A stretch of 64,000 nucleotides of DNA from contig NZ_CP147520.1 of NCBI RefSeq assembly GCF_037201975.1, positions 4,278,001-4,342,000 of the forward strand, read 5' to 3'. This stretch comes from Streptomyces sp. TG1A-60. Lineage in GTDB: Bacteria; Actinomycetota; Actinomycetes; Streptomycetales; Streptomycetaceae. The number at the start of each line of letters is the position of its first letter. Position 1 is the first letter of the stretch. The position numbers were made by a program, and so were the translations under genes. Positions 11,899 to 27,441 of this stretch are shown one piece after another. The notes under the pieces were generated by a model. The model worked only from the letters and a program-made list of their open reading frames with translations, ran no database searches and was not told where the DNA came from.

Positions 11899-12111
11899 CG
11901 GGCGGCGGACCTCCTGTGGGTGACGTCGGTGGCCGTCTCCCGGAGCTGCGACGTGGTCGCGGAAGCGCGTCAGGTACGCCGCTGAGAGGCGTACGGCCGC
12001 AGGAAGCACCCCGGCTTCGGGCGCGCGGCCCCGGGAGGATCGTGGCTCAGGCACCAGTCACGAGGCCGGTCGCGAGTCACGCACTCAACGATGGCCGCCG
12101 GTGCCCCTGAT

Positions 12112-12131
12112 GCTCATGGGCGTTTATGAGC
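12112..12131. promoter_or_regulatory. Candidate operator, copy 1
   Basis: A GCTCAT ... ATGAGC inverted repeat with 8 bp between arms lies in the gap between the divergent HATPase and nucleotidyltransferase genes. Read on the minus strand it gives GCTCATAAACGCCCAT, which differs by one base from the motif at 15998-16013 in front of the RiPP-like operon. The shared rare sequence suggests one regulator for both sites, most simply the XRE protein encoded at 14.4-16.0 kb. Confidence 0.45.
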
Positions 12132-12226
12132 GCGAGGGGTCAACGAGCGACAAGGCACTCCAGCGCGACCGCCGACCCGCCGTCGGCCTGTGCTTCCGCT
12201 CGGCTGGTCACTGGGAGTATGGGCGG

Positions 12227-12850
12227 GTGATTGCTGACGTGTTGGGACGCTGGGTGCCGGATCGCCCCGAGGATGTGGCCACGGTCTTCGCCAAGGCGGA
12301 CTTCCCGTGGTGGATCGCCGGTGGCTACGCGATCGAACTCGCGGTCGGCCGCGAGCTGCGCGCGCACGGCGATCTCGACGTCCTCGTCCTCCGGCGTGAC
12401 CAGGGCCTCGTACATGAACTGCTGGCCGACTGGGACCTGCACGTGGCGGATCCGCCCGGCCAGGGGGAGTTGAGACCGTGGCGTCCTGGAGAGGTCCTTC
12501 GGCCGCCGCTCCACGACATCTGGTGCCGCCGCACATCCAAGGCGCCCTGGTCGGTGCAGCTCATGTTGGACGAGGTCGAGGGCACCCAGTGGGTCTCGCG
12601 GCGTACCCAGGAGATCCGGCTCCCGATCGACCAGCTCGGGCGAACGAGCGAGGCGGGCATCCCGTATCTCGCGCCCGAGGTACAGCTCTTCTACAAGGCA
12701 AAGGCGACCCGGGACAAGGACGAGACCGACTTCGAAGCGGTACTGCCACTGCTCGACGCTCCGGCACGCGCCTGGCTGGCGGACGCGATCAAGGTGATCG
12801 CGCCCAACCACCCCTGGCTTCGCCTGCTCCTTCCGGTCAGCCGAACGTGA
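12227..12850 (+). CDS. Nucleotidyltransferase, aminoglycoside-adenylyltransferase-like
   Basis: 207 residues from GTG 12227, with GGGAG 10 nt upstream. The catalytic strand reads WIAGGYAIELAVGRELRAHGD followed by LDVLVLRRDQ. This gives the GG...D-x-D pattern of the polymerase-beta-like nucleotidyltransferase fold, as found in ANT(2'')-type and lincosamide adenylyltransferase-like proteins. A later FYKAKATRDKDETDF segment is also typical of the group. It may modify a small molecule or be a metabolic enzyme; resistance is not implied. Its stop overlaps the convergent DUF296 gene by 14 bp. Confidence 0.7.
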   Translation: MIADVLGRWVPDRPEDVATVFAKADFPWWIAGGYAIELAVGRELRAHGDLDVLVLRRDQGLVHELLADWDLHVADPPGQGELRPWRPGEVLRPPLHDIWCRRTSKAPWSVQLMLDEVEGTQWVSRRTQEIRLPIDQLGRTSEAGIPYLAPEVQLFYKAKATRDKDETDFEAVLPLLDAPARAWLADAIKVIAPNHPWLRLLLPVSRT

Positions 12851-13295
12851 GCAGCGGAACGTCGTAGAGGTCGGGGTTTCGGGGCCGGGTCATCGTGGGC
12901 GACGTGACCTCCACGATCAGCAGCTCGCTGAGGAACTGGACCTTGGCGCTGAGGAGATGGCTAGTCCTGCCGTCGGCCGACTGGGCCTTCAAGCCGGCGG
13001 AGACGTGGATGTGCGGAAGTATCCCGCTGGTGGCCGGGTCATGGGCGAGCGTGCCCGCGCCGAACGCCTCGACGTTGGTGACGTACGTCTTCGCCCAGAC
13101 CGGTGCGTCCGGGTCCGCGAGCTTCTCGCAGGCACCCACGATTTCGGCCTCCGCGAAGGCCCCGATGAACGAGGGGATGTAGCCCTGCCGTACGTCGTTG
13201 TCCCGGCAGAAGGTGGACAGCGCCTCGAAGAAGTCCTCCCCGTGGTCGAAGGTGACGCCGAAGGTACGGCCGACGGTCAGCTCGTGAGCGCGCAT
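12837..13295 (-). CDS. PPC/DUF296 domain protein
   Basis: 152 residues making up one complete PPC (DUF296) domain. It starts VGRTFGVTFDHGEDFFEALSTF and continues with the family's GYIPSFIGAFAEAEI core and PHIHVSAGL strand (His pair typical of metal-binding members). Bacterial PPC proteins form trimers; their function is largely unknown, though plant relatives carry DNA-binding AT-hooks that are absent here. It starts 27 bp after the asparaginase gene on the same strand, so the two are probably co-transcribed. Confidence 0.8.
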   Translation of the reverse strand: MRAHELTVGRTFGVTFDHGEDFFEALSTFCRDNDVRQGYIPSFIGAFAEAEIVGACEKLADPDAPVWAKTYVTNVEAFGAGTLAHDPATSGILPHIHVSAGLKAQSADGRTSHLLSAKVQFLSELLIVEVTSPTMTRPRNPDLYDVPLLTFG

Positions 13296-13322
13296 GTGCG
13301 GGTGTCTCCTGACGGGATGGGA

Positions 13323-14324
13323 TCAGCGGGCGGAGGCGGTGGTGAAGGTCTCGCGGACCGTTGCCCCGTCGGCGCCCTGGGCAAGCAGGGCGTGGAGGAG
13401 GAGCCGCGCATGGTACGGGCTGAGGTCTCCGGCGCCGATGAGTCCTCGCCCGAGGAGGTCCTTCTCGGAGCCGGGGAAGCCGTACGTGTCGGACAGGACG
13501 GGTCCGTTGCCGATGCGGGAGGCGAGGACCACGGGGATGCGGGACGCGAGCTTGGTGAGCCCTTCGACGAGGCGCTCCGGGACGTGGCCGACGCCGAAGG
13601 CCGCGACCACGAGTCCGTCGCAGTTGCCGTCCCACAGGTCGAGCAGGGTGCCGTCGTCGCCGAGGGTGACGGTGTAGAGCCCGACGCGCGCCTCACGGTC
13701 GGGCGCGCTGACGAGCGGTCCGCGGGACGGCAGGCCACCCATCATCCGCACCCGGTTCTCCGCGACCCGCGCGATCGGGCCGCTTGCTGGTGAGGTGAAA
13801 GCGGCGGGGCTGGTGGTGTGGGACTTGCGGACGGTCCGGGCCGAGTGGATCTCTTCGCCGAGTACGACGAGGCAGCCGGCGCCCCGCAGGCCGGGGGCGG
13901 CGGCAGCCAGGACGGCGGCATGGATGTTGGCCGGGCCGTCTGCGCCGGGCAGTGTGGGGTTACGCATCGCGCCGGTGACGACGACTGGCTGCTCGTGGCC
14001 GTGGTAAAGCTCGAGGAGGAAGGCAGTCTCCTCGATGGTGTCGGTGCCCTGGGTGATGACGACGCCGTCGACGTCCCCGGCCTCAAGCTCCGCCGTGATC
14101 GCGGCCGATAGTGCGGTGAGGTCCTCGAAGGTCAGGGAGGCGCCGGGCAGACGTCGGAAGTCTCGGACTTTGAGTTCGATGCCGCTCGTGGCCAGGGCGG
14201 GTACCGCGGCGAGGAGTTCGTGGGCCGAGAGCGCGGGTACGACGCCTCCGGTGGTGGGATCGGTGGTCATGGCGATCGTGCCGCCGAGGGAGAAGACCGC
14301 CACGTTCCTGACCGACTTCGTCAT
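13323..14324 (-). CDS. L-asparaginase / glutaminase family amidohydrolase
   Basis: 333 residues, normal for bacterial type I/II asparaginases. The first catalytic threonine sits in SLGGTIAM near the N-terminus and the second in VVITQGTDTIEETA, the two PROSITE-type signatures of the family. There is no signal peptide, so the enzyme is cytoplasmic. It would release ammonia from asparagine or a related amide. It is followed closely by the DUF296 gene. It lies between the XRE regulator gene and DUF296 on the same strand, with 94 bp separating it from the regulator stop. Confidence 0.9.
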   Translation of the reverse strand: MTKSVRNVAVFSLGGTIAMTTDPTTGGVVPALSAHELLAAVPALATSGIELKVRDFRRLPGASLTFEDLTALSAAITAELEAGDVDGVVITQGTDTIEETAFLLELYHGHEQPVVVTGAMRNPTLPGADGPANIHAAVLAAAAPGLRGAGCLVVLGEEIHSARTVRKSHTTSPAAFTSPASGPIARVAENRVRMMGGLPSRGPLVSAPDREARVGLYTVTLGDDGTLLDLWDGNCDGLVVAAFGVGHVPERLVEGLTKLASRIPVVLASRIGNGPVLSDTYGFPGSEKDLLGRGLIGAGDLSPYHARLLLHALLAQGADGATVRETFTTASAR

Positions 14325-16101: not shown

Positions 16102-16863
16102 GTGACCTCCTTGACCCTGCCGCCCCGGCCTCCCGGTTCGCCGCCGCTGGCCCTTGCCTGGCAGACGCTGGCGGACGGGCTGCTGACCCAGCGGCTCCAT
16201 CTCCATCTGGACGAATGGCGGGCTGCCGTCGCCGAGGAGAACGCGCTGCCGGACGTGCCGGGCGCCGATGTCTCCGTGCTGGCCCAGCGCCCGTCTCCGC
16301 TGCCGGCAGGCGACGAGTCCGCTATGGCGCTGATGGAGGACATCGGGCTCGGCTTCTGGTGGGAGCTGCCCCAGCGACACGGAACGGAGTCGCGGAACCG
16401 GCGCGGGGCACTTCACCGCGCCGCCGACACCGCTGCCCAGAACATCCTCGCGGAGCAGTCCAGGGCTGCCTGGTCCGACGCAGTGACCGCCGTCAGCGCC
16501 GCCGCCGCGTGGTGGGTGGGCTTCTTCGCGGTCATCCGCCACCGCGGGGTGCACCACATCACGCTGGAACCGCACCCTGCCCCGCTCCACGAGCAGGCCC
16601 TGGACACCGCGGTGAGCGTGGTGGCCAACGGCATGGCCACGCGGGTGCTGGAGGCAGAGCTACGCGGCTCCGACGACGACCCGGCCCTCCGCGCCGCGTA
16701 CTGCCGGGCCATCGAGGCCGGCATCTGCGCCGAGCCCGAGCTTCCCCGCCTCATCAACGAGTTGGCGGAGCTGCGGCTGGTGGACCTGGTGTCCACCACG
16801 GCCCGCTGGCGGAGCCGCTTCACCAAGTACGCGGGCGGCACGGGGGCGGGGCAGGTCGAATGA
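16102..16863 (+). CDS. Hypothetical protein, first gene of the RiPP-like operon
   Basis: 253 residues from GTG 16102 (an AGGA lies 8 nt upstream); GTG 16087 is an alternative. It is Ala/Leu-rich and probably all-helical, with one hydrophobic stretch (AAAAWWVGFFAVIRHRG). There is no catalytic motif I know. Its stop overlaps the next start (ATGA at 16860), so it is translated with the thymidylate-kinase-like gene. Position as first gene of the operon, directly after the candidate operator, suggests it belongs to the pathway. Confidence 0.6.
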   Translation: MTSLTLPPRPPGSPPLALAWQTLADGLLTQRLHLHLDEWRAAVAEENALPDVPGADVSVLAQRPSPLPAGDESAMALMEDIGLGFWWELPQRHGTESRNRRGALHRAADTAAQNILAEQSRAAWSDAVTAVSAAAAWWVGFFAVIRHRGVHHITLEPHPAPLHEQALDTAVSVVANGMATRVLEAELRGSDDDPALRAAYCRAIEAGICAEPELPRLINELAELRLVDLVSTTARWRSRFTKYAGGTGAGQVE

Positions 16864-17546
16864 ACCACCGCTATCCGTTCATCGTCATCGAGGGGCTCGA
16901 CGGCACCGGCAAGACGACGCTGCGCAAGGGGCTGTTCCGGCTCTGGGAGGGGCTCTACGGCGTCACCCCGCTGTGCGTACTCACCACCAACTTCCTCGCG
17001 GTCGACCAAGCCGCCGCCATCGTCACCGGCAAATACCAGCCGAACGCCGGGAACCGTGACGCCTACCTGTCCGCGATCGCGGCGGACAAGCGGGCCACGC
17101 TGGATCGCCTCGTGCTCCTCCAGCGACCGGCCCGGCCCGTGATCGCGGATCGCTGGCTTCTCAGCGAGCTGGCCTTCTTCGCCGTGAAGCACGGCATGAG
17201 GGCGTCGGAGACGTACGAGGCGCTGGCCGCGCACCTCACCGTCGCCCCCGATCTCACGCTCGTCTTGGACCTGGAGACCGACGCCTCGATGAGCCGGGCG
17301 CAGGCCCGCCAGGGCGACGCCGTCCGGGCCGACTGGGACGTGCACGACGTCCAGAGCCGGGTTCGCGAGACCTACGAGGCCGTGGTCACGAAGCCCGACG
17401 AGTTCCCGCTCCTCGGCGATGTGGTCCGCCTGGACGCCCGCCGACCCCGGTCCGAGGTGCTGCTCGCAGCCTGGGACGTACTGCGCGAACGGCAACTGGT
17501 GCCGTCGCTCGCCGCCCACGCGGAAGGAGGAGAGACCCATGGCTGA
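16860..17546 (+). CDS. Thymidylate-kinase-like P-loop protein
   Basis: 228 residues. The P-loop is IEGLDGTGKTT (10-20), the sequence typical of dTMP kinases, followed by an RPVIADRWLLSE segment that matches the DRx motif and LTLVLDLETD. The family normally phosphorylates dTMP. In a biosynthetic operon it more likely phosphorylates a pathway intermediate or a modified nucleotide. It overlaps the unknown gene upstream by 4 bp and runs 8 bp into the PEP-mutase-like gene, so translation is coupled. Confidence 0.75.
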   Translation: MNHRYPFIVIEGLDGTGKTTLRKGLFRLWEGLYGVTPLCVLTTNFLAVDQAAAIVTGKYQPNAGNRDAYLSAIAADKRATLDRLVLLQRPARPVIADRWLLSELAFFAVKHGMRASETYEALAAHLTVAPDLTLVLDLETDASMSRAQARQGDAVRADWDVHDVQSRVRETYEAVVTKPDEFPLLGDVVRLDARRPRSEVLLAAWDVLRERQLVPSLAAHAEGGETHG

Positions 17547-18408
17547 CGGCACGAAGGGGACGCGTCTGCGTGAGGCCCTCGCCGACAGCGAGCGGAAGCA
17601 CCCGCTCCTGGCGATCGGTGCGGTGAACGCGCTCGCCGCGCACGTCGCGGTGGAGGCGGGCTTCGACGCCCTTTGGGTGAGCGGTCTGGAGGTGTCGGCG
17701 GCCTCCGGGCTGCCTGACGCCAACGTCCTGGGCCCCCGGGACCTGTCCGACGTGGTCGCCTCGCTAGGCCGTGTCACCGAACTACCCATCATCGTGGACA
17801 TTGACAACGCGGGCGGCTCGGGGCGCACGGCGGAGCGGTTCGCGTACGACCTGATGCGCGCCGGAGCCGCTGCGGTGTGTGTCGAGGACAGCGCGTACCC
17901 GAAGTGCAACAGCTTCGCTGCCCACCGGGCGCAGACCCTCGCCGACCGGGACCTTCTGTGCGAGCAGGTGGGGCGTATACGGAAGGTCGCCGGTGACGGC
18001 CTCGTGGTCGTGGCCCGCACCGAGGCCCTGATCGCCGGCGAGGACATGGCCACGGCGATGGCCCGCGCCGAGGCATACGCCGAGGCCGGAGCGGATGCGG
18101 TGCTCATCCATTCCAAGGACGCGACCGGTGATCAGGCGCGGACCATCGGGCGTGCGTGGAGTCACGGCGTGCCGCTGGTCAGCGTGCCCACGGCGTTCCC
18201 CGACCTGAGCGCCGCCGAACTCGGCGAGGCTGGCTTCCGCCTCTGCATCTACGCGAACCAGCTCAGCCGTGCCGCCCTCGCGGGTATGCGCACCGCCGCT
18301 CGTCAGTTCCAGCGCGGAGGGAGCTTCCGCTCCACCGTCGCGGGGTCTCTGGCGGAGGTCGGCGACCTGATGCGCGTCGGCGAGCCGGAGGCGCTGTCGT
18401 GTCTCTGA
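17539..18408 (+). CDS. PEP mutase / isocitrate lyase family protein
   Basis: 289 residues from ATG 17539, behind a strong GGAAGGAGG. It is a TIM barrel of the PEP mutase/isocitrate lyase superfamily. Visible motifs are the substrate loop ASGLPDANVL (Asp 60), the metal-binding VDIDNAGG (Asp 87, Asp 89) and EDSAYPKCNS (116-125). True PEP mutases of phosphonate pathways carry EDK-x5-NS at the last site. Here the NS is kept but Lys is Ser, placing it near the PEP mutase/phosphonopyruvate hydrolase branch with altered chemistry possible. A D-2-hydroxyacid dehydrogenase two genes on could reduce a phosphonopyruvate-like keto acid. Confidence 0.8.
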   Translation: MADGTKGTRLREALADSERKHPLLAIGAVNALAAHVAVEAGFDALWVSGLEVSAASGLPDANVLGPRDLSDVVASLGRVTELPIIVDIDNAGGSGRTAERFAYDLMRAGAAAVCVEDSAYPKCNSFAAHRAQTLADRDLLCEQVGRIRKVAGDGLVVVARTEALIAGEDMATAMARAEAYAEAGADAVLIHSKDATGDQARTIGRAWSHGVPLVSVPTAFPDLSAAELGEAGFRLCIYANQLSRAALAGMRTAARQFQRGGSFRSTVAGSLAEVGDLMRVGEPEALSCL

Positions 18409-18869
18409 CGCCCGAGCTGCCTCGGATCAGCGTCTCCGTGAAGGCGGCGATCGTGCGCGACGGCACCGTCCTGCTGCTGTCGTACGACGACGAAGCCGGG
18501 TTCCACTACAACCTCCCGGGAGGCAAGGCCCAGGTCGGCGAAGACCTGCGCCAGGCCGTGAACCGCAAGGTCGCACAGGAGACCGGCCTCCAGGTCGTGG
18601 CCCGGCGTCTGCTGTGCGTCGTCGAGTACGTCCCCGAGTCGTGGCAGGGCGAGTTCGGGGACGTACAGAAGGTCCAGTTCAACTTCCTCGCCGAGCAGGT
18701 GGACGACGCCGAGCCGCGCATGCCGGAACCTCCGGACCCGATCCAGGTGGGCTTCGAGTGGGTTCCGCTGAAACGCCTGAATGACGTGTACCTGCTGCCC
18801 AGGATCAACCGCCCGCTGTCGGCGGCGTTGAGCGGGGAGCTCGCCGACCCCTTCGTGGACAGGTGGTGA
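18399..18869 (+). CDS. Nudix-fold protein with degenerate Nudix box
   Basis: 156 residues from GTG 18399, overlapping the stop of the preceding gene by 10 bp. The Nudix fold is clear (AAIVRDGTVLLLSYDDE, then LPGGKAQVGE). However, the box reads G-x5-E-x7-RKVAQETG in place of REUxEExG: the catalytic Glu after Arg is Lys and the first Glu of the EE pair is Gln. Hydrolysis may be weak or absent, so it may bind a nucleotide or nucleotide-linked intermediate instead. Its place between PEP mutase-like and methyltransferase genes makes it part of the pathway. Confidence 0.75.
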   Translation: MSLTPELPRISVSVKAAIVRDGTVLLLSYDDEAGFHYNLPGGKAQVGEDLRQAVNRKVAQETGLQVVARRLLCVVEYVPESWQGEFGDVQKVQFNFLAEQVDDAEPRMPEPPDPIQVGFEWVPLKRLNDVYLLPRINRPLSAALSGELADPFVDRW

Positions 18870-18874
18870 CCTTC

Positions 18875-19540
18875 ATGGATCCGACTCTGAAGGATTTGCA
18901 GGAGTGGCTACTGCGGGAGCACTCAGGGACGGTCTGTGCCGACCGGCTCGACGTGATCGCCGACGAGCTCGCCGACCTGACCGCCCGCAGTCTGCCGGGG
19001 GCCGTGGTCGAACTCGGCTGCTACAGGGGCGCGATGGCCCTCTGGATCCGCAGCGTGCTCGACTCGCTGGGCGACCGCGACCGCGAGATCCACGTCTACG
19101 ACTCCTTCCAGGGCATGCCCGCGCCCGGCGCCGAGGACTCGGACCACCTGGCGGCGGGCGAGCTCCGGTCGTCCCCGGACGACGTGCGCGCCACGCATGC
19201 GGCCTGGGGCAGGCCGGCGCCGGTCATCCATCCGGGGTGGTTTGACGAGACCCTTCCCAAGGAGCTGCCCGACGAGATCGCGTTCGCCTATCTCGACGGC
19301 GACTTCTACGACTCGATCCTCACGGGCCTCACGCACTGCGTCACCCGCCTGGTACCGACGGGTGTGTTGCTCGTCGACGACTACGCGGACACGGCGGTCA
19401 ATCCGCGGGCCTGGGACGGGCTCCCCGGGGTGAAGCGTGCCTGCGACGCGTACTTCGGTGGGCCTTCGCCCGTGACCGTCGTCGTCGGTGAGGGTGATCT
19501 CGCCTTCGGCCGTTATGAGAAGCCGGAGTTCCGCGGATGA
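18875..19540 (+). CDS. TylF/MycF-like class I methyltransferase
   Basis: About 221 residues from ATG 18875 (in-frame GTGs at 18863 and 18866 are possible starts). Motif I is VVELGCYRGAMA. It is followed by the family's IHVYDSFQGMP, the LDGDFYDS metal/SAM loop and a VLLVDDYAD strand. This is the pattern of TylF (macrocin O-methyltransferase) proteins, which need a divalent metal and usually methylate a hydroxyl. Here the acceptor is unknown, perhaps a hydroxy acid made by the next gene product. Its stop overlaps the dehydrogenase start by 4 bp. Confidence 0.8.
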   Translation: MDPTLKDLQEWLLREHSGTVCADRLDVIADELADLTARSLPGAVVELGCYRGAMALWIRSVLDSLGDRDREIHVYDSFQGMPAPGAEDSDHLAAGELRSSPDDVRATHAAWGRPAPVIHPGWFDETLPKELPDEIAFAYLDGDFYDSILTGLTHCVTRLVPTGVLLVDDYADTAVNPRAWDGLPGVKRACDAYFGGPSPVTVVVGEGDLAFGRYEKPEFRG

Positions 19541-20460
19541 GCGCTGTCCTGGTGCTACGCGGTGCGGCGGACGCGAGCGCGATCCGCCGCGCCCTGCCCG
19601 ATGTCCTCGTACACGAGTTGCCGGATCTGGACTCGCCTCCGCCCGCCGACACGGCCGTGCTCGTCCTGCGTTCAGGCGTCCGTCTTGGCGAGAGGGAGCT
19701 CGACGCGCTCCCTCGTCTGCGGCACGTCGTACGGACCGGCTCCGGCATCGACCACATCGACGTGAGCGCCCTCCGGCAGCGTGGAATCACTCTGCACCGC
19801 AACGCCGAGGCCGGCGCGGGTGCCGTGGGCGAGTGGGTCCTCGCCGCTGCCCTCGCACTGGCCCGGCGGATCCCCTTCGGGCAGCACGCACTGCTCCTCG
19901 GCCGACACGAGAAGCAGGCATGCATGGGCGCGTCACTCAGCACCCTGGCCACCGGGATCTGGGGCGCTGGCCCGGTGGGGTTGGCCGTCGACTGGGCCCT
20001 CGCCCCCCACGTGGGCCGCACGGCCTTCGCCGCGTGGTCGTCGAACCCTCCCGGTCTGCGAGCGCGGCCGCCGACAGCCCTCATGGAGCAGTCGCAGGTA
20101 CACGTGATCGCTCTGCCGTTGCGCCCCACGACCGAAAATCTCTTCGGCGAGGACTTCCTCGAACGCGTCGCTCCGCAGCGGCCTCTGCTCATCTGCGTAG
20201 GGCGGCTGGAGACCCTCGACGTCGCGGCCTGCCTGCGGGCACTGGCGGACGGGAGGCTCTCGGGCCTCGCACTCGACCCGGTCGAGCGGCAGCACCTGCC
20301 GCTCCTCACCGGCTCCACGACGCCGCTCAACTTCCTGGCCTCGCCCCACATCGGCGCACAGCGCTCCGACGTGCGCGGCGCACTCGACCGATGGGCCATC
20401 GATCTCCTCAGGGAGATCACCGCCGACGACAAGATCCTGATCGAAGGAGGCCACCGGTGA
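19537..20460 (+). CDS. D-isomer-specific 2-hydroxyacid dehydrogenase family protein
   Basis: 307 residues. The N-terminal catalytic lobe contains RTGSGIDHIDV. The NAD-binding lobe has a shortened glycine motif (GIWGAGPVG). The catalytic triad region is present as ICVGRLETLD (Arg), ALDPVE (acidic residue) and SPHIGAQRSD (His). It would interconvert a 2-keto acid and a D-2-hydroxy acid with NAD(P)H. Because a PEP-mutase-like gene is in the same operon, a phosphonopyruvate reductase role is an attractive but unproven reading. It overlaps both neighbours by 4 bp. Confidence 0.8.
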   Translation: MSAVLVLRGAADASAIRRALPDVLVHELPDLDSPPPADTAVLVLRSGVRLGERELDALPRLRHVVRTGSGIDHIDVSALRQRGITLHRNAEAGAGAVGEWVLAAALALARRIPFGQHALLLGRHEKQACMGASLSTLATGIWGAGPVGLAVDWALAPHVGRTAFAAWSSNPPGLRARPPTALMEQSQVHVIALPLRPTTENLFGEDFLERVAPQRPLLICVGRLETLDVAACLRALADGRLSGLALDPVERQHLPLLTGSTTPLNFLASPHIGAQRSDVRGALDRWAIDLLREITADDKILIEGGHR

Positions 20461-21326
20461 ACCCATCGGCACGACGGCGCCGGGAGATCGCCGACAGAGT
20501 CGCCCAGGCCCTGCTCGCATCCGGTGAGGCCCGCGAGGTCTGGCTGGAGGGGGCCCTCGCCTGCGGCTTTGCCCACGCGGCGAGCGACATCGACCTGCGT
20601 GGCATCGTGGACGACCCCCTTCCGGCATGGGAGTCACGCATCGTGGACGGCGTCCGTGTCGACCTCCAGGCGACAGCGCCGCAACAAGCCGAGAAACTCC
20701 GTCACCTGCTCCACTCCTTCGACGTCCACCGCGACGATCTCGGATCGTTCCGCCGGGTACGGGCCTCGATGCACGACCTCATGTGTCTGCGCACGGCTCT
20801 CTCGTACGGCTCCGGACGCTGGAATCCGGTGCTCGACCCCAGGGAGCGCCAGGGCTACCGACGCTGGGCGGTCGCCGACCAGGCGGAGGTCGCGGCGAGC
20901 CTCGCCGAAGACCTGACCGGCCTCGTCGAGGACGGCCTGGCCGAATCGGCCGGCGTCGTGTGCCGGAAGCTGGAGACCTGCCTCGCCGCGCTCGGCTGCG
21001 CGGCTGCCGGCCACCCGGTCCTGGGCGACAAGTGGCTGCCGCTGCTTGCCAGCGCTCCGTTCCATCCGCCGATCGCCCCGCCCCGCCCCGAAACGTGGGA
21101 GTGGTTCCGTCCGGTTCAGCGACGCGTGACCAGAGCGCTCCTGGACTGCTGGCCCGTCGACGACCCGCTGCAGAAGCCTCCCGACCTGGGAGGTGCCCCT
21201 GACGTCGGTTGGCTGCCCCAGCGGTACGCCGACGGATGGTTCCTTCGCTGCGGCGACGTCCACATCCCCATCACCGGCGGACAGCTCCTCGGGTGGCTGT
21301 CCACGGTCTCCACCGATGGCGCGTAG
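20457..21326 (+). CDS. Nucleotidyltransferase-fold protein
   Basis: 289 residues from GTG 20457, overlapping the previous stop. The N-terminus shows the polymerase-beta-type nucleotidyltransferase core: VWLEGALACGFAHAASDIDLRGIV, here given in parts as VWLEGALACGF and ASDIDLRGIV, with the D-x-D metal pair followed by a third acidic strand (VDGVRVDLQA). The C-terminal half is helical. It may adenylylate or otherwise activate a pathway acid or sugar. The family alone does not reveal the substrate. It is separated from the radical SAM gene by 30 bp that include a GGGAGG ribosome site. Confidence 0.7.
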   Translation: MNPSARRRREIADRVAQALLASGEAREVWLEGALACGFAHAASDIDLRGIVDDPLPAWESRIVDGVRVDLQATAPQQAEKLRHLLHSFDVHRDDLGSFRRVRASMHDLMCLRTALSYGSGRWNPVLDPRERQGYRRWAVADQAEVAASLAEDLTGLVEDGLAESAGVVCRKLETCLAALGCAAAGHPVLGDKWLPLLASAPFHPPIAPPRPETWEWFRPVQRRVTRALLDCWPVDDPLQKPPDLGGAPDVGWLPQRYADGWFLRCGDVHIPITGGQLLGWLSTVSTDGA

Positions 21327-21356
21327 ACCGCGCCTCTCCTCCTCGGGAGGTCTCTG

Positions 21357-23216
21357 ATGCCCGTCACCCGCACCACCCCCACGCACCTGGAGAGTCTCTA
21401 CGCCCCAATGTCGAGCACCGGGCCGGACACGGCGGTCTCCGTCATCCTCAAGCTGCGGGGAGAGACCTGCGACATCGACTGCCTGTACTGCTTCGAGAAG
21501 CGCAAGGAGTCACCGGGCGGCGCCCGTATCAGCGCGGAACAGGTCCACCGCCTCGGTTCGATCTTCTCCGGGCGTCCGCTCAGCGTCGAACTCCACGGCG
21601 GGGAGCCCCTGACCGCCGGCCGGGAACGGATTGCGGAGATCCTTGACGCGCTCGCCACACAGCCGAACGTCATCCGCGTGAGCCTCCAGACCAACGGCCT
21701 CCAACTCGACGACGCCTGGCTGGACCTGTTCGAGCAGCACTACCCGGAGCTGAAGATCGGCATCTCCCTCGACGGGGACGCGCTGGGGAACTCGTGGCGA
21801 GTGGGCTACGACGGCCGCCCCACGTACCCGCGAGTGGTCGAAGCCCTGAAGCTCCTCGGCCGTCGGGAACGCCGCGTCGGCGTCATCTGCGCCGTCACCC
21901 CGTACGTCCTCGACCGGGCCTCCGAGGTCATGGAGCACCTCGCCTCCTTTCCCGCCGTGACGACGGTCAGCCTTGTGCCGTGCTTCGACGCGGCGGTCAC
22001 CCGCTCGACCACGGTGGTCGGATCCCGTGCGCCGACCAGTCGGGCACTCCAGCGACGGGCCATCGGCCCCACCGGCCCGGCCTGGGCCGTCACGCCTCGT
22101 CAGTACGCCGACTTCGTGTTGGAGGCCGCCCACCACTGGGTCGCCGATGGCGTGTTCCGCCGCGTCAAGCTGGAGCCCGTCGTCTCCGTCATCCGCCGTC
22201 TGAAGGGTCTGGGGACCCGTTCCTGTCACTTCTCCGATTTGAAGTGCGACCACGTCCTCACCCTCTATCCCGATGACCGCCTGGGAAGCTGTGACGAGCT
22301 GCCCTGGCCGCAGGCCGGCCTCGCCTCCCTCGGCGACGTCCACACCGAGGCGGACGTGGCCAGCGCCCAGGGCGGCTCTCCCTTGCTTCAGCAGGCACGC
22401 TCCCTGGTCACGAGGTGCACGACCTGCCACTACCGCGACACCTGCGGCGCAGGCTGCCTGGCGGTCCGCCTCCGTTTCGCCGCCGCGGGCGACGAAGACG
22501 CGTACTGCGACCACCGCATGCGCCTGATCGACGGCGTCGCCGCCCTCCTCGCCCAGCCAGACCTCCCGCCCGGTGCCTCATGCTCCCGGTTGCGCTGGCG
22601 TCCCGTCCGCCCCAACAACATGCACCACGTCTCCGCCTTCCTGGCCCGCTGGGACGACCCCACTGTTCCCCGCCCGCCCGCGCGTCTCCAGGTCAGCGCC
22701 AACGGGAACATCAACACGGTCGGCCTCCCTGGCGTGCACGAGGCAGACGATCTCGACCCCTACCATCCCCAGTGGTATGACGGCATCGAATCCGGCATCC
22801 GCCCGGTCGTCGACGCGCTCACCTCAGGCTGGAACGCCGTCACCTACGACAGCTGCCAGGGTCACGCCTACGCAGACCTCCCCGGAGCCGAGCCCCGGTT
22901 CCTCTCGGTCGGCATCCTGCCGCGCGACCGCGCCGAATACGCGCGCACAGCTGCACGCCTATGCCGTGCCGCCAGCCGAGCCGAGTCCTCCCTGCCGGGC
23001 GCGTGTTCGCTGGCCCTCGGTCGTGGCGAACTCGCCTGCCGCACCACCGGCCGGGTGCATCCGACCCTCGACCTCTCTCTCGTGCCCGCTGCCGGCACCA
23101 CGTCGGCCGAGTACTTCGAGGACCTCGCCCAGGCGGTGCGCGTACTCACGGTGGCCCTGGCCGAAGCCGCCTCCGCCCCGCCGTCCACCCCCTGCGCGTG
23201 CGGAGGCGACCAGTGA
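21357..23216 (+). CDS. Radical SAM/SPASM protein, likely peptide maturase
   Basis: 619 residues. The [4Fe-4S]/SAM motif is CDIDCLYC (Cys 38, 42, 45), followed by the ELHGGEP SAM-binding motif. A SPASM-type auxiliary cluster region holds eight cysteines (290, 297, 312, 354, 357, 363, 367, 384) including the CxxCxxxxxCxxxC run, enough for two extra Fe-S clusters. Such proteins typically install C-C, C-O or C-S crosslinks in ribosomal peptides. Beyond residue 400 lies an unusual extension of about 220 residues with an SCQGH motif. The gene is followed without a gap by the 2OG oxygenase and soon by a short peptide gene, the likely substrate. Confidence 0.85.
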   Translation: MPVTRTTPTHLESLYAPMSSTGPDTAVSVILKLRGETCDIDCLYCFEKRKESPGGARISAEQVHRLGSIFSGRPLSVELHGGEPLTAGRERIAEILDALATQPNVIRVSLQTNGLQLDDAWLDLFEQHYPELKIGISLDGDALGNSWRVGYDGRPTYPRVVEALKLLGRRERRVGVICAVTPYVLDRASEVMEHLASFPAVTTVSLVPCFDAAVTRSTTVVGSRAPTSRALQRRAIGPTGPAWAVTPRQYADFVLEAAHHWVADGVFRRVKLEPVVSVIRRLKGLGTRSCHFSDLKCDHVLTLYPDDRLGSCDELPWPQAGLASLGDVHTEADVASAQGGSPLLQQARSLVTRCTTCHYRDTCGAGCLAVRLRFAAAGDEDAYCDHRMRLIDGVAALLAQPDLPPGASCSRLRWRPVRPNNMHHVSAFLARWDDPTVPRPPARLQVSANGNINTVGLPGVHEADDLDPYHPQWYDGIESGIRPVVDALTSGWNAVTYDSCQGHAYADLPGAEPRFLSVGILPRDRAEYARTAARLCRAASRAESSLPGACSLALGRGELACRTTGRVHPTLDLSLVPAAGTTSAEYFEDLAQAVRVLTVALAEAASAPPSTPCACGGDQ

Positions 23217-23931
23217 TCCACATCGCCGAGACTCTGTCCATCCGTACTGTGGAGGGCTTCCTCAAGCCGGAGGAGATCGAGCAACTCAACCTCGTCATGG
23301 ACGACACACTCGGCTCCCTCGGGCGCGACCGTACGGCACAGCCCGCCGTACCACCATCCATGAGATCCCCGGTCACTCAGCCGCCGAGGCGCAGGACGTC
23401 TACGAGCCGGTCGGCCGGATCGAGGTGACCGACATCCCGTCCGAGGCGACCACCCTCCTCGACCAGGCCCTGAAGCTGCACATGGCCGTCATCACGCGCA
23501 CCCTGCCGTCGGTCACCGGCCACCGGCCGTGGATCTACCTCGAATACGGCCCCGGCCAGTACGTCACCCCGCATGCCGATGGCATCGCTCCCGATCCCCT
23601 CACTCGTCCCCGCCAGATCGCCGCCGCGACGGTCACGCTCACGGACGTTGACGACACCGGCGGCGCGTTCTACGTGGAGACCACGGGCAGCGACGCCGTC
23701 TGGACCACCGACGAGGCGCCGGCCGGGTCGGGTTACGCCCAGGGAATGCGCTTCGCGCACGAAGGGACGGACATGTCCTCCCCCTGGTTCCGCACCATGC
23801 CACGCACCCGATGGAGCGTCGCACCCGCTCCCGGCACGCTCGTGGTCTTCGGCAGTCAGCTCGTCCACGGCACCGAACCTGTCCTCGCCAGCCGCGTTCG
23901 CAAGTTCCTCACGCTCTTCGTCTCCGAGTAG
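23213..23931 (+). pseudogene. 2-oxoglutarate/Fe(II) oxygenase-like gene with an apparent single-base frameshift
   Basis: Starts at GTG 23213, overlapping the radical SAM stop. The first 43 or so residues (IHIAETLSIRTVEGFLKPEE...) are in one frame and the rest (TTIHEIPGHSAAE... to the end) in the next. Adding one base near 23342-23344 (a CCC run) gives a continuous 239-residue protein. The core shows the facial triad: HxD in VTPHADG, and a distal His in LVHGTEP followed by an Arg/Lys (SRVRKF) for 2-oxoglutarate. It would hydroxylate, desaturate or epimerise the peptide or a small intermediate. Since the rest of the operon looks intact, a sequence error is at least as likely as true loss. Confidence 0.7.
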
Positions 23932-24018
23932 GAGGCTTCCCCGCCATGACTGGCCCCCGCGGCCCGCCCCGCAGCCGCACCCCCAACCCACGGCCCCGAC
24001 CAGAGGAGAGAGCGAGCA

Positions 24019-24177
24019 GTGGCAGAAGACAAGACATTCGACGAGTTCCTGGAGGCAGTCGCGTCCCTGCGCGACAGCGATCCCGTGCGCACCACCGCGC
24101 ACACCTCCAACGCGGCCACCGAGACCTGGCTGGCGACGGTGCAGCCCGCCACCGCTGAGCCCACCACCGAGTCCTGA
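24019..24177 (+). CDS. 52-residue candidate RiPP precursor peptide
   Basis: GTG 24019, preceded by GAGGAGAG at a normal distance, encodes 52 residues. The N-terminal half (VAEDKTFDEFLEAVASLRD) is acidic and amphipathic-helical, as in leader peptides. The C-terminal half is rich in Thr, Ala, Ser, Asn and Pro, with one Trp at 37 (ATETWLATVQ) and the ending PTTES. There is no Cys, so no lanthipeptide or sactipeptide crosslink is possible. It lies between the 2OG oxygenase (87 bp upstream) and the HExxH protein gene (57 bp downstream), directly in the maturase operon. The identification as precursor rests on size, composition and position. Confidence 0.6.
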   Translation: MAEDKTFDEFLEAVASLRDSDPVRTTAHTSNAATETWLATVQPATAEPTTES

Positions 24178-24234
24178 CCCGCCACGGGGCCGGGCCCGAC
24201 CCGGTCCGGCCCCGTTCCACCCCTGGAGCCCCAG

Positions 24235-25152
24235 ATGAGCGCTCTCTCCCCGGAAGCCCTGGTCGCCCTCGGTGGCATCGCTGACCATCAGCGCCTACGG
24301 ACCAGCCGTATCACCTCCGTGCTCGCCAACTGCCTCGGCTCTTCCGCCCTCGACTACGCCGTGGCCCACCATCTACTTGAAGGCGCCGAACACGCGGCGC
24401 GCGCCCGGGACGCGAACCGCCTCGCCTGGTACCGCTGTACGACGGTGGGAGACCTGACCCACCTGTCGGCCGGCCCGCACATCGTGCTCAACCCGCGCAC
24501 CGCGGACCTGCTCCGCTCGGAGATCTCCGAAACCGCGTACTACCTCGTCGGCCCTGACACCAGCCCCGCCCCACCCGAGGCCCTTGGCCTCGTTCGTGCC
24601 GCCATCGCCTCCGCGACCGAGCACGGATTCGGGATCCTGCTCACCCAGCAGGCCGCCGTCATCTGCCTGCTCAACCGTCGCCGACTCGACGAGACCCTCC
24701 ACAGCTGGGCCCTCACCCGCCTCCCGGGCACCGTCTTCACCGACTACACCGCCCACCCCGAGGTCCTGGCCCGCGACCTGATCCACGAGGCCGCCCACAA
24801 CTGGCTCAACGACGCCCTCGCAGCACACGACGTGCGCCTCCCTACGGACGTCACCTTCTTCTCGCCCTGGCGAGGCACTGACCGTCCCGTCTTCGGATTC
24901 CTCCACGCGTGTTGGGCGTTCGCCCTCACCGTGCTCTACGCACGAGAGGCGCGGCGCAGCGCCACGGGCGCCGTCGCACGCTTCCTCGACACCCACCTGC
25001 GCCACCAAGCGGTTCAGTTCGCTGCCGCCACCGAGCAGATGGAACAGGCCCTCTCGTACGTAACCGCACACGAGATCCGTGAACGGATCGGTCACGCCGT
25101 CGGCAAGGTCGTGGGTCCAGCGGGATCAGAAGCATCACCATGTTGCTTGTAG
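24235..25152 (+). CDS. HExxH-motif putative peptide-modification protein
   Basis: 305 residues from ATG 24235 with GGAG upstream. The key motif is LIHEAAHNWLN (His 184, Glu 185, His 188). It is followed by FFSPWRGTDRPVFGFLHACWAF, given here in parts as FFSPWRGTDRP and GFLHACWAF (third His about 224). This spacing, with SPWR and RP before a downstream His, fits the HEXXH-motif family found beside radical SAM peptide maturases (TIGR04267-like). Some members have been described as iron/2-oxoglutarate peptide hydroxylases. It is probably not a protease. It is the last gene of the operon and likely acts on the adjacent 52-residue peptide. Confidence 0.75.
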   Translation: MSALSPEALVALGGIADHQRLRTSRITSVLANCLGSSALDYAVAHHLLEGAEHAARARDANRLAWYRCTTVGDLTHLSAGPHIVLNPRTADLLRSEISETAYYLVGPDTSPAPPEALGLVRAAIASATEHGFGILLTQQAAVICLLNRRRLDETLHSWALTRLPGTVFTDYTAHPEVLARDLIHEAAHNWLNDALAAHDVRLPTDVTFFSPWRGTDRPVFGFLHACWAFALTVLYAREARRSATGAVARFLDTHLRHQAVQFAAATEQMEQALSYVTAHEIRERIGHAVGKVVGPAGSEASPCCL

Positions 25153-26824: not shown

Positions 26825-26859
26825 CCGGGAACTGCAACCAAAACTGCAACCACGCACGA

Positions 26860-26893
26860 CGAAGGGCCCCGCCGCGAACGGTGGGGCCCTTCG
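26860..26893. terminator. Terminator hairpin downstream of tRNA-Ser
   Basis: GAAGGGCCCCGCC and GGTGGGGCCCTTC pair with one G-T mismatch around a 6-nt loop. It can end both the minus-strand tRNA-Ser transcript and anything reading through the CoiA remnant. Confidence 0.7.
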
Positions 26894-26914
26894 ACATCGT
26901 GCCCGGTGAGGCAC

Positions 26915-27002
26915 TGGCGGAGGATACGAGATTCGAACTCGTGAGGGGTTGCCCCCAACACGCTTTCCAAGCGTGCGCCCTAGGCCTCTAGGCGAATCCT
27001 CC
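26915..27002 (-). tRNA. tRNA-Ser (anticodon GGA)
   Basis: 88 nt with a GGAGGAT/ATCCTCC acceptor stem, a D-arm GCCTAG...GGC, anticodon loop CTTGGAAAG (anticodon GGA), a long variable arm as in all tRNA-Ser, the TTCGAAT T-loop, discriminator G and an encoded CCA. The 3' end faces the accessory region. tRNA 3' ends are common integration sites, but I found no integrase gene or second copy of the tRNA end in the window. Confidence 0.95.
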
Positions 27003-27146
27003 GCCGGGAACATTACATGACGGCGGAGGGTGTTTGCGAACTCGTTCGAGGTCGGGCGATCGTCGGGCGATCAAGGTGCCGGTGAGATGCGGGCGAGGTG
27101 GGGGAGGCGGGTCGGCGGACCCCGGGGATCGGGTAGGCTGAGGGCA

Positions 27147-27232
27147 GCCCCTCACGCGGCGCTATCTGACTGAACTCCCCCAGGGCCGGAAGGCAGCAAG
27201 GGTAGGTTGGCTCTGGCGGGTGCGTGAGGGGT
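27147..27232 (+). ncRNA. ffs: Bacterial small SRP RNA (4.5S type)
   Basis: Terminal stem CCCTCACGC with GCGTGAGGG closes a hairpin. Its apical part holds the conserved SRP core: CCAGGGCCGGAAGGCAGCAA with GGGTAGGTTGGCTCTGG. This domain binds Ffh. Placement between tRNA-Ser and dnaX is usual in Streptomyces. Confidence 0.93.
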
Positions 27233-27441
27233 CTTCCGCATTCTGGTGTCCTGGGACCAGTCTTCGGGGCTGTGCGGCCGGGGGCCGGTGGCTGTTCGGC
27301 GGCTGTGACAGCCGGGGCATGACTGTCCGGGGCCGTGGCTCTTCGGGGCTTGGTGGACCGAGGCCGTGGCCGGACCCTGACGGGGCCGTTCTCGTTCGGT
27401 GGCGGGTCGGGTTGTCAGTGGGCGCCTATAACCTCGTATGC

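Follow-up and report, generated by a model that had tools for sequence, protein, structure and literature searches.

In this work we analyzed a stretch of 64,000 nucleotides (the window) from Streptomyces sp. TG1A-60, corresponding to positions 4278001-4342000 of a 7.8-Mb single-contig genome. The object of interest is an operon of eleven genes, g1 to g11, read from the sequence on the + strand between positions 16102 and 25152 (Table 1), as had been claimed in an earlier interpretation made from the letters alone (the sequence-only reading). Genes of small-molecule metabolism, among them a gene for a phosphoenolpyruvate (PEP) mutase-like protein, are joined here to genes for the maturation of a short peptide, the candidate precursor of a ribosomally synthesized and post-translationally modified peptide (RiPP).

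Table 1. Genes of the operon, followed by features of its surroundings (window coordinates)
Feature	Position	Strand	Evidence
g1, all-helical protein, conserved C-terminal tail	16102..16863	+	no Pfam/NCBIfam match
g2, thymidylate-kinase-like (TMK-like) kinase	16860..17546	+	PF02223, 44.1 vs 27 bits
g3, PEP mutase of the EDS-X5-NS clade	17539..18408	+	PF13714, PDB matches, motif, tree
g4, Nudix-fold protein, degenerate Nudix box	18399..18869	+	PF00293
g5, TylF-like O-methyltransferase	18863..19540	+	PF05711, 102 vs 23 bits
g6, D-2-hydroxyacid dehydrogenase, proposed phosphonopyruvate reductase	19537..20460	+	PF02826, PF00389
g7, nucleotidyltransferase-like protein (NTase)	20457..21326	+	G...SDxDL motif
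g8, radical S-adenosylmethionine (SAM)/SPASM peptide maturase, 200-aa C-terminal extension	21357..23216	+	PF04055
g9, 2-oxoglutarate (2OG)-Fe(II) oxygenase gene, frameshifted	23213..23931	+	PF13640
g10, predicted 52-aa RiPP precursor	24019..24177	+	conserved leader/core
g11, HExxH protein, alpha-ketoglutarate (aKG)-HExxH peptide beta-hydroxylase family	24235..25152	+	TIGR04267
aminoglycoside-2''-adenylyltransferase-like gene	12101..12850	+	PF10706, 33 vs 21 bits; present in classical loci
PCC-domain protein, last of divergent set	12837..13295	-	PF03479, 47.6 vs 25 bits
asparaginase-like gene, divergent set	13323..14324	-	TIGR00520, 168.8 bits, below cut-off 314.3
divergent regulator, N-terminal Cys pairs, helix-turn-helix	14419..15954	-	PF13560
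tRNA-Ser 3' end repeat, likely attachment site	26854..26970		117 bp, 98% identity to L002

Seven gene pairs overlap and three are spaced (g7/g8 by 30 bp, g9/g10 by 87 bp and g10/g11 by 57 bp). The sequence-only reading had counted five overlaps of 4 bp along with others of 8-10 bp; the longer ones are present at g2/g3 (8 bp) and g3/g4 (10 bp), while the 4-bp type occurs at four junctions only (g1/g2, g5/g6, g6/g7 and g8/g9), and g4/g5 overlap by 7 bp. Among 25 homologous operons, with gene starts set by alignment to the window proteins and not by fresh gene calling, the 4-bp overlap was kept in 18 at g1/g2, in 18 at g5/g6 and in 19 at g6/g7; the overlaps of 8, 10 and 7 bp were kept in 17, 19 and 20 operons, respectively. 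Since identical overlaps return across the 25 operons, the coupling of g1-g7 is not a product of chance. A simple scan found no promoters or terminators. The domain assignments of the sequence-only reading agreed with Pfam matches above the cut-offs (PF02223, PF13714, PF00293, PF05711, PF02826, PF04055 and PF13640) and with TIGR04267 for the HExxH protein; with NCBIfam, g2, g3 and g8 each scored below the cut-off of the best model.

The operon is rare. We found the radical SAM gene in 18 of 297 Streptomycetaceae genomes (E <= 1e-30; G121, G167 and G177 had shorter matches only), with the nearest relative in a genome of the same genus (G228), and the NTase in 11 of the 297 (E <= 1e-10), all 11 falling within those 18. 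At the class level the radical SAM protein was matched in 3 of 374 genomes, including the window genome (E <= 1e-60).

A scan of named genomes produced 55 loci (a 57-locus set counts several genomes twice). In 25 of them, the PepM type, the genes for g1, TMK, PEP mutase (PepM), Nudix, TylF, dehydrogenase, NTase, radical SAM and 2OG proteins stand in one order, so the gene order that the sequence-only reading proposed to look for in other actinobacteria does recur. The HExxH gene is also present in 24 of the 25; the exception, L055, reaches the end of its contig ahead of the peptide. The kinase type (22 of the 55) has a canonical-looking Nudix protein, the radical SAM enzyme, a 210-aa protein, the 2OG enzyme, TMK, a Hanks-type kinase, the peptide and the HExxH protein, with a serine-hydrolase/beta-lactamase-like gene at 19 of the 22 loci. 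The remaining eight loci are of other types or incomplete. All 50 of the 55 loci that bear the HExxH gene also carry a TMK-like gene, and the 28 loci with TylF all have the 2OG gene. The PepM set without TylF and 2OG was observed in L042, L043 and L046, and the same gene content makes up a nine-gene version on a Kitasatospora cathayae plasmid (public record), which defines a minimal set.

Judged by its sequence, g10 is a RiPP precursor. It starts at a GTG codon at 24019, has no Cys, and is divided into a leader (about residues 1-24), a core (T26-A-H28-T29-S30-...-W37) and a variable tail. In an alignment of 50 distinct relatives Phe10, Arg24, Thr26, His28 and Trp37 were invariant, Leu11, Val14, Thr29 and Ser30 were nearly so, and the core followed a near-invariant consensus, T-x-H-[TS]-[SA]-x6-W. 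The first peptide finder demanded H..W, which made the invariance of His and Trp partly a matter of construction; for this reason we recounted on tblastn matches, a set that itself depends on likeness to the window peptide, and found H[TS][SA]x6W in 57 of 57 and R-x-T-x-H-[TS]-[SA] in 55 of 57. The core H-[TS]-[SA] fits, in all 57, what we take to be the aromatic-X-X motif of cyclophanes; the motif is short and thus suggestive only. The sequence-only reading had made its single pathway depend on the presence of the short peptide at homologous loci, and a precursor was present at every one of the 50 HExxH-bearing loci (49 by tblastn or pattern, L102 by open reading frame listing). The peptides of L048 and L102 and the first of the two in L071 were taken manually from such listings. 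None of the 24 relatives of g10 in the sequence database had a functional name.

Variants of the core were also seen. The three PepM loci lacking TylF and 2OG have the core TMHSSREGADDW. In L102 (Verrucosispora, 12117-14208) genes for YcaO and TfuA, of thioamidation type, lie between the peptide and the 2OG gene, and the core is TAHTAAVFASDW.

Among the peptide-modifying enzymes, g8 has the radical SAM motif CxxxCxxC (C38, C42 and C45) and the SPASM cysteines C312, C354, C357, C363 and C384, all invariant in 32 sequences; its score with the FxsB model TIGR04269 was 101 bits, below the cut-off of 370. Residues 405-619 form a confidently predicted C-terminal domain with conserved D-D-L-D-P and Y-D-S-C-x-G-H, which is missing from the shorter enzymes of L048 and L102 and is not spanned by the PDB matches listed. 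The HExxH protein g11 scored above the TIGR04267 cut-off (60.6 vs 40 bits), and its H184, E185 and H188 were conserved in at least 95% of 58 sequences. Searches by sequence for solved relatives of g7 and g11 gave no convincing match.

With regard to g9, the sequence-only reading had named the oxygenase family correctly and missed a frameshift: the N-terminal part (from the GTG at 23213) and the remainder (to 23931) lie in different frames, with the break near 23.32-23.35 kb. The 2OG frame is open in 24 of the 25 PepM-type relatives, from upstream of the radical SAM stop codon, and in seven PepM-type relatives examined separately the 2OG protein is one continuous frame. In L063 (S. tagetis) the gene is also broken, at a different position. 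The frameshift in the window may be a real loss or an assembly error.

The small-molecule half is centered on g3. It matched PF13714 with 147.9 bits (cut-off 31.5), which upholds the superfamily given by the sequence-only reading. The PEP mutase model was its top NCBIfam match, and the best PDB match was 5unc, followed by 2dua (a phosphonopyruvate hydrolase) and 1m1b. The sequence-only reading had overlooked that g3 keeps all the positions we take to be catalytic in PEP mutases, namely the metal-binding Asp pair, a Glu, an Arg, a His and the PK-x-NS lid. Its signature is EDSAYPKCNS, where Ser replaces the Lys of EDKX5NS; EDS-X5-NS occurs in 118 of 120 g3 homologues among the matches listed. 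A perfect EDKX5NS match is, in the available part of the paper, the PepM criterion of a published screen (PMC12723261), and a screen that demands it would therefore drop the g3 clade.

At E <= 1e-40, 46 of the 297 genomes had a mutase match, and in 13 of these genomes the identity was at least 58%. These 13 are the 11 NTase-carrying genomes and two without the NTase (G037 and G049), where the mutase adjoins a split thiamine pyrophosphate (TPP) enzyme and there is no peptide half. The two halves of the TPP enzyme in L137 had TIGR03297, the phosphonopyruvate decarboxylase model, as best match; their scores of 63.5 and 58.1 bits lie under the cut-off set for the whole protein, as half-length chains would be expected to do. 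The split decarboxylase-like neighbour is the best evidence that the EDS clade may produce phosphonopyruvate. In the operon itself a candidate consumer of phosphonopyruvate, the dehydrogenase g6, is encoded beside g3.

The second kind of cluster around an EDS-type mutase was seen in L136 (7503-9976, - strand) and L137 (9705-13657, + strand). It has an HprK-like kinase, the split phosphonopyruvate-decarboxylase-like pair, a P-loop protein (MobB/CbiA-like) and a TauD-like oxygenase, lies near a MurF-like gene without a peptide half, and looks like an undescribed phosphonate cluster.

The other small-molecule proteins are less easily named. For g1 there were 139 homologues, with no functional name among the 120 matches listed; its C-terminal tail is near-invariant (W-R-G-x-F-x-K-Y-x-G-G-T-G-A-G-Q-V-E), and the structure model is all-helical (mean predicted local distance difference test score, pLDDT, of 87.8) with no confident PDB match. 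We considered a single family made up of g1, the kinase-type 210-aa protein and similar TMK-adjacent proteins and rejected it, because HHalign gave a probability of 0.08% for g1 and the 210-aa protein and at most 22% for the latter and the other TMK-adjacent proteins; the sole match of g1 was the L071 relative (96%). For g2 the P-loop and the DR (Asp-Arg) motif are conserved, and the score with the dTMP kinase model TIGR00041 was below the cut-off (63.6 vs 83.25 bits). The thymidylate kinase parent family phosphorylates a monophosphate.

The Nudix box of g4, called degenerate already in the sequence-only reading, carries Lys where REUXEE has its first Glu, as do all 31 boxes seen in 32 rows (L046 left out); given this substitution, binding is a likelier role for g4 than hydrolysis. 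The dehydrogenase g6 conserves the GxGxxG dinucleotide motif and the PHxG histidine, with the D..E pattern missing in L070 and L071 (2 of 32 rows). The assignment of g7 as a nucleotidyltransferase was backed by a conserved motif (hG...DxD-type) and found no real Pfam match; a distant relative in L071 matches PF01909. The motif pattern was unmatched in the type B rows L042, L043 and L046, and the aligned Asp columns were at least 95% conserved (31 rows).

Locus L071 (997-13416) has an unusual content: two precursor peptides, two TMK-like and two Nudix genes, the NTase, the dehydrogenase, a g1 relative, and PIG-L-like and aminotransferase-like genes, with no PEP mutase. It is a natural experiment on the role of the dehydrogenase-NTase module in the absence of a phosphonate.

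The sequence-only reading proposed one product around the short ribosomal peptide. In its favor, 25 of the 55 loci have the complete set in one contiguous run, and the NTase always occurs with the radical SAM gene; on the other hand, the halves are also found apart, the peptide half without the mutase half at 22 of the 55 loci and the EDS mutase without the peptide half in 2 of the 13 genomes. The peptide half is therefore a chassis whose partner modules can be exchanged.

We are confident that the operon encodes a single RiPP pathway of some kind. That it builds one RiPP together with a phosphonate, in the form proposed below, we put at slightly short of an even chance. The radical SAM enzyme would cross-link the core, most likely into a three-residue cyclophane at His28-Thr29-Ser30, and the HExxH protein, together with the 2OG enzyme where it is intact, would hydroxylate the peptide. 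TylF, seen only alongside the 2OG enzyme, would methylate the hydroxyl that this enzyme introduces. The mutase g3 would convert PEP to phosphonopyruvate, and g6 would reduce it to phosphonolactate, thus pulling the unfavourable mutase equilibrium. Such reduction by a 2-hydroxyacid dehydrogenase, the phosphonolactate branch, is described in the available part of a published paper (PMC12871164). The TMK-like kinase and the NTase may activate the phosphonate or attach it to a core hydroxyl, with g4 and g1 as possible binding partners. The nucleotide-activated acid of the sequence-only reading has thereby become more specific in its acid part: the decorating acid is probably a phosphonate.

In the sister clusters a Hanks-type kinase would phosphorylate the peptide in place of the phosphonate module, with the TMK-like kinase present in both; with one module swapped for the other, the common theme would be a phosphorus-containing group on the same peptide. 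More tentatively still, we see here a possible class of RiPP-phosphonate hybrids, in which a radical SAM-cyclized peptide bears a carbon-phosphorus block from an EDS-type PEP mutase and the sisters phosphorylate the same core by Hanks-type and TMK-type kinases.

Several points weigh against the phosphonate proposal. The window's own copy of the 2OG gene is frameshifted, and we identified no transporter, leader protease or immunity gene. The reactions are deduced from the enzyme families, and the transfer of a phosphonate to the peptide is a hypothesis. Other points concern g3 and speak also for an alternative that we consider unlikely, one where the single RiPP pathway stands, g3 is an isocitrate-lyase/PEP-mutase superfamily enzyme with a different activity, and the peptide is decorated with an ordinary 2-hydroxy acid. 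g3 lacks the Lys of the published signature, as nearly all its listed homologues do. It scored 202.6 bits with TIGR02320, where the cut-off is 319.55, and three EDS sequences with wide context scored 190-203 bits; five EDK-type controls, trimmed to the matched region, reached higher values (272-309 bits) and yet were also below the cut-off. In the mutase tree (midpoint-rooted, with some long branches flagged) 33 EDS-clade rows split from 14 EDK-type rows with 100/99 support. Moreover, L071 keeps the dehydrogenase, NTase, Nudix, TMK and g1 relative without the mutase, and therefore the dehydrogenase need not use phosphonopyruvate. Against a non-mutase g3 stand the retained catalytic positions, the top rank of the PEP mutase model among NCBIfam matches and the phosphonopyruvate-decarboxylase-like pair that adjoins members of the same clade in two genomes.

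The precursor could also serve as a scaffold, from which a modified fragment of one or a few residues (e.g. the cross-linked His-Thr-Ser) is excised and combined with the phosphonate into a small molecule or signal. In favor of this, the core hardly varies and the tail does so freely, unlike many antibiotic RiPPs with variable cores; the operon is rich in small-molecule enzymes and has no recognized exporter, and the serine-hydrolase/beta-lactamase-like genes follow in most kinase-type loci (19/22). However, the PepM type has no recognized excision enzyme and the leader is conserved together with the core, so that we regard the scaffold as improbable. We give still less credence to two products of one transcript, a RiPP and a separate phosphonate or nucleotide metabolite, co-expressed and not joined. 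It would account for a peptide half that stands alone or with other modules (the Hanks kinase at 22 of the 55 loci) and for an EDS mutase in another type of cluster; but g1, the NTase (11/11), the degenerate Nudix protein and the dehydrogenase were not found away from the radical SAM gene, TMK is present at every HExxH locus, and the gene overlaps are conserved across genera.

Both phosphonates and RiPPs are large natural product groups. If the operon does join them, there would be a phosphonate branch invisible to EDKX5NS screens, as well as a peptide chassis of one core with exchangeable phosphorus modules, testable with nine genes. Should the two prove separate, the EDS clade and the TMK-containing peptide family are still sets of considerable size, with no functional names beyond superfamily among the matches listed.

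The surroundings of the operon point to mobility. The divergent set (regulator, asparaginase-like, PCC-domain and adenylyltransferase-like genes) goes with the classical operon form, the asparaginase-like gene in 20 and the regulator in 21 of the 25 PepM-type loci. The PCC-domain protein is 91-98% identical in most classical loci, above most operon proteins, and 71-76% in L038, L039, L070 and L074. Downstream, the intact operon adjoins a tRNA-Ser gene (26915-27002), the signal recognition particle (SRP) RNA gene (27143-27239; the sole match of an Rfam scan), dnaX and purD. About 31 kb upstream of g1 we observed a scrambled remnant of a second copy (L002 1287-2368; genome 4262821-4263902), with pieces of the asparaginase, g1, TMK and PepM genes in operon order (93-96% blastn identity). 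It is followed by a copy of the tRNA-Ser 3' end with its flank (117 bp, 98%), about 41 kb upstream of the intact tRNA-Ser end, and beside this copy lies a C-terminal fragment of a tyrosine integrase (4263442-4263627). The remnant and the tRNA-Ser copy suggest repeated integration at tRNA-Ser; from its sequence the region looks like an integrative element at this site with a decayed earlier insertion. Homologous gene sets were also found on two linear plasmids.

In the literature seen, judged mostly by titles, abstracts and term counts, we found no work joining a phosphonate or a PEP mutase to a RiPP pathway, and the term 'thymidylate kinase' had 0 occurrences in the RiPP papers listed. Kinases are known from class III/IV/V lanthipeptide and phosphorylated lasso-peptide systems, the latter in some cases with a nucleotidyltransferase. 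The resemblance to the present case lies in kinases acting on the precursor of a RiPP; in the sister loci, the Hanks-type kinase matched the LanL-like model NF038150 weakly (39.6 bits, cut-off 650). They differ in that here the precursor lacks Cys and the conserved kinase is of TMK type, and no lanthionine cyclase or lasso-cyclase families were among the Pfam/NCBIfam matches of the scanned operon proteins.

As in phosphonate clusters of the phosphonolactate branch, as far as these are described in the accessible part of PMC12871164, a PEP mutase fold with its catalytic residues and a D-2-hydroxyacid dehydrogenase are encoded in one operon; unlike in phosphonate clusters, the signature is EDS-X5-NS and not EDK-X5-NS, a ribosomal peptide is coupled, and the operon has no decarboxylase, transaminase or non-ribosomal peptide synthetase gene. 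The two-subunit TPP enzyme next to the L137 mutase is like the rhizocticin-type split decarboxylase RhiEF (PMC12141560, seen in part). Unlike in the RhiEF systems, the split pair is not in the window, and it shows only what phosphonate company the EDS clade keeps elsewhere. Finally, the ChlB/ChlBH cyclophane RiPPs also combine a radical SAM with an aKG-HExxH enzyme, whereas the operon described here encodes them as separate proteins, its radical SAM enzyme carries 200 additional C-terminal residues and falls below the FxsB cut-off of TIGR04269, and kinase and proposed phosphonate modules are added to the peptide half.

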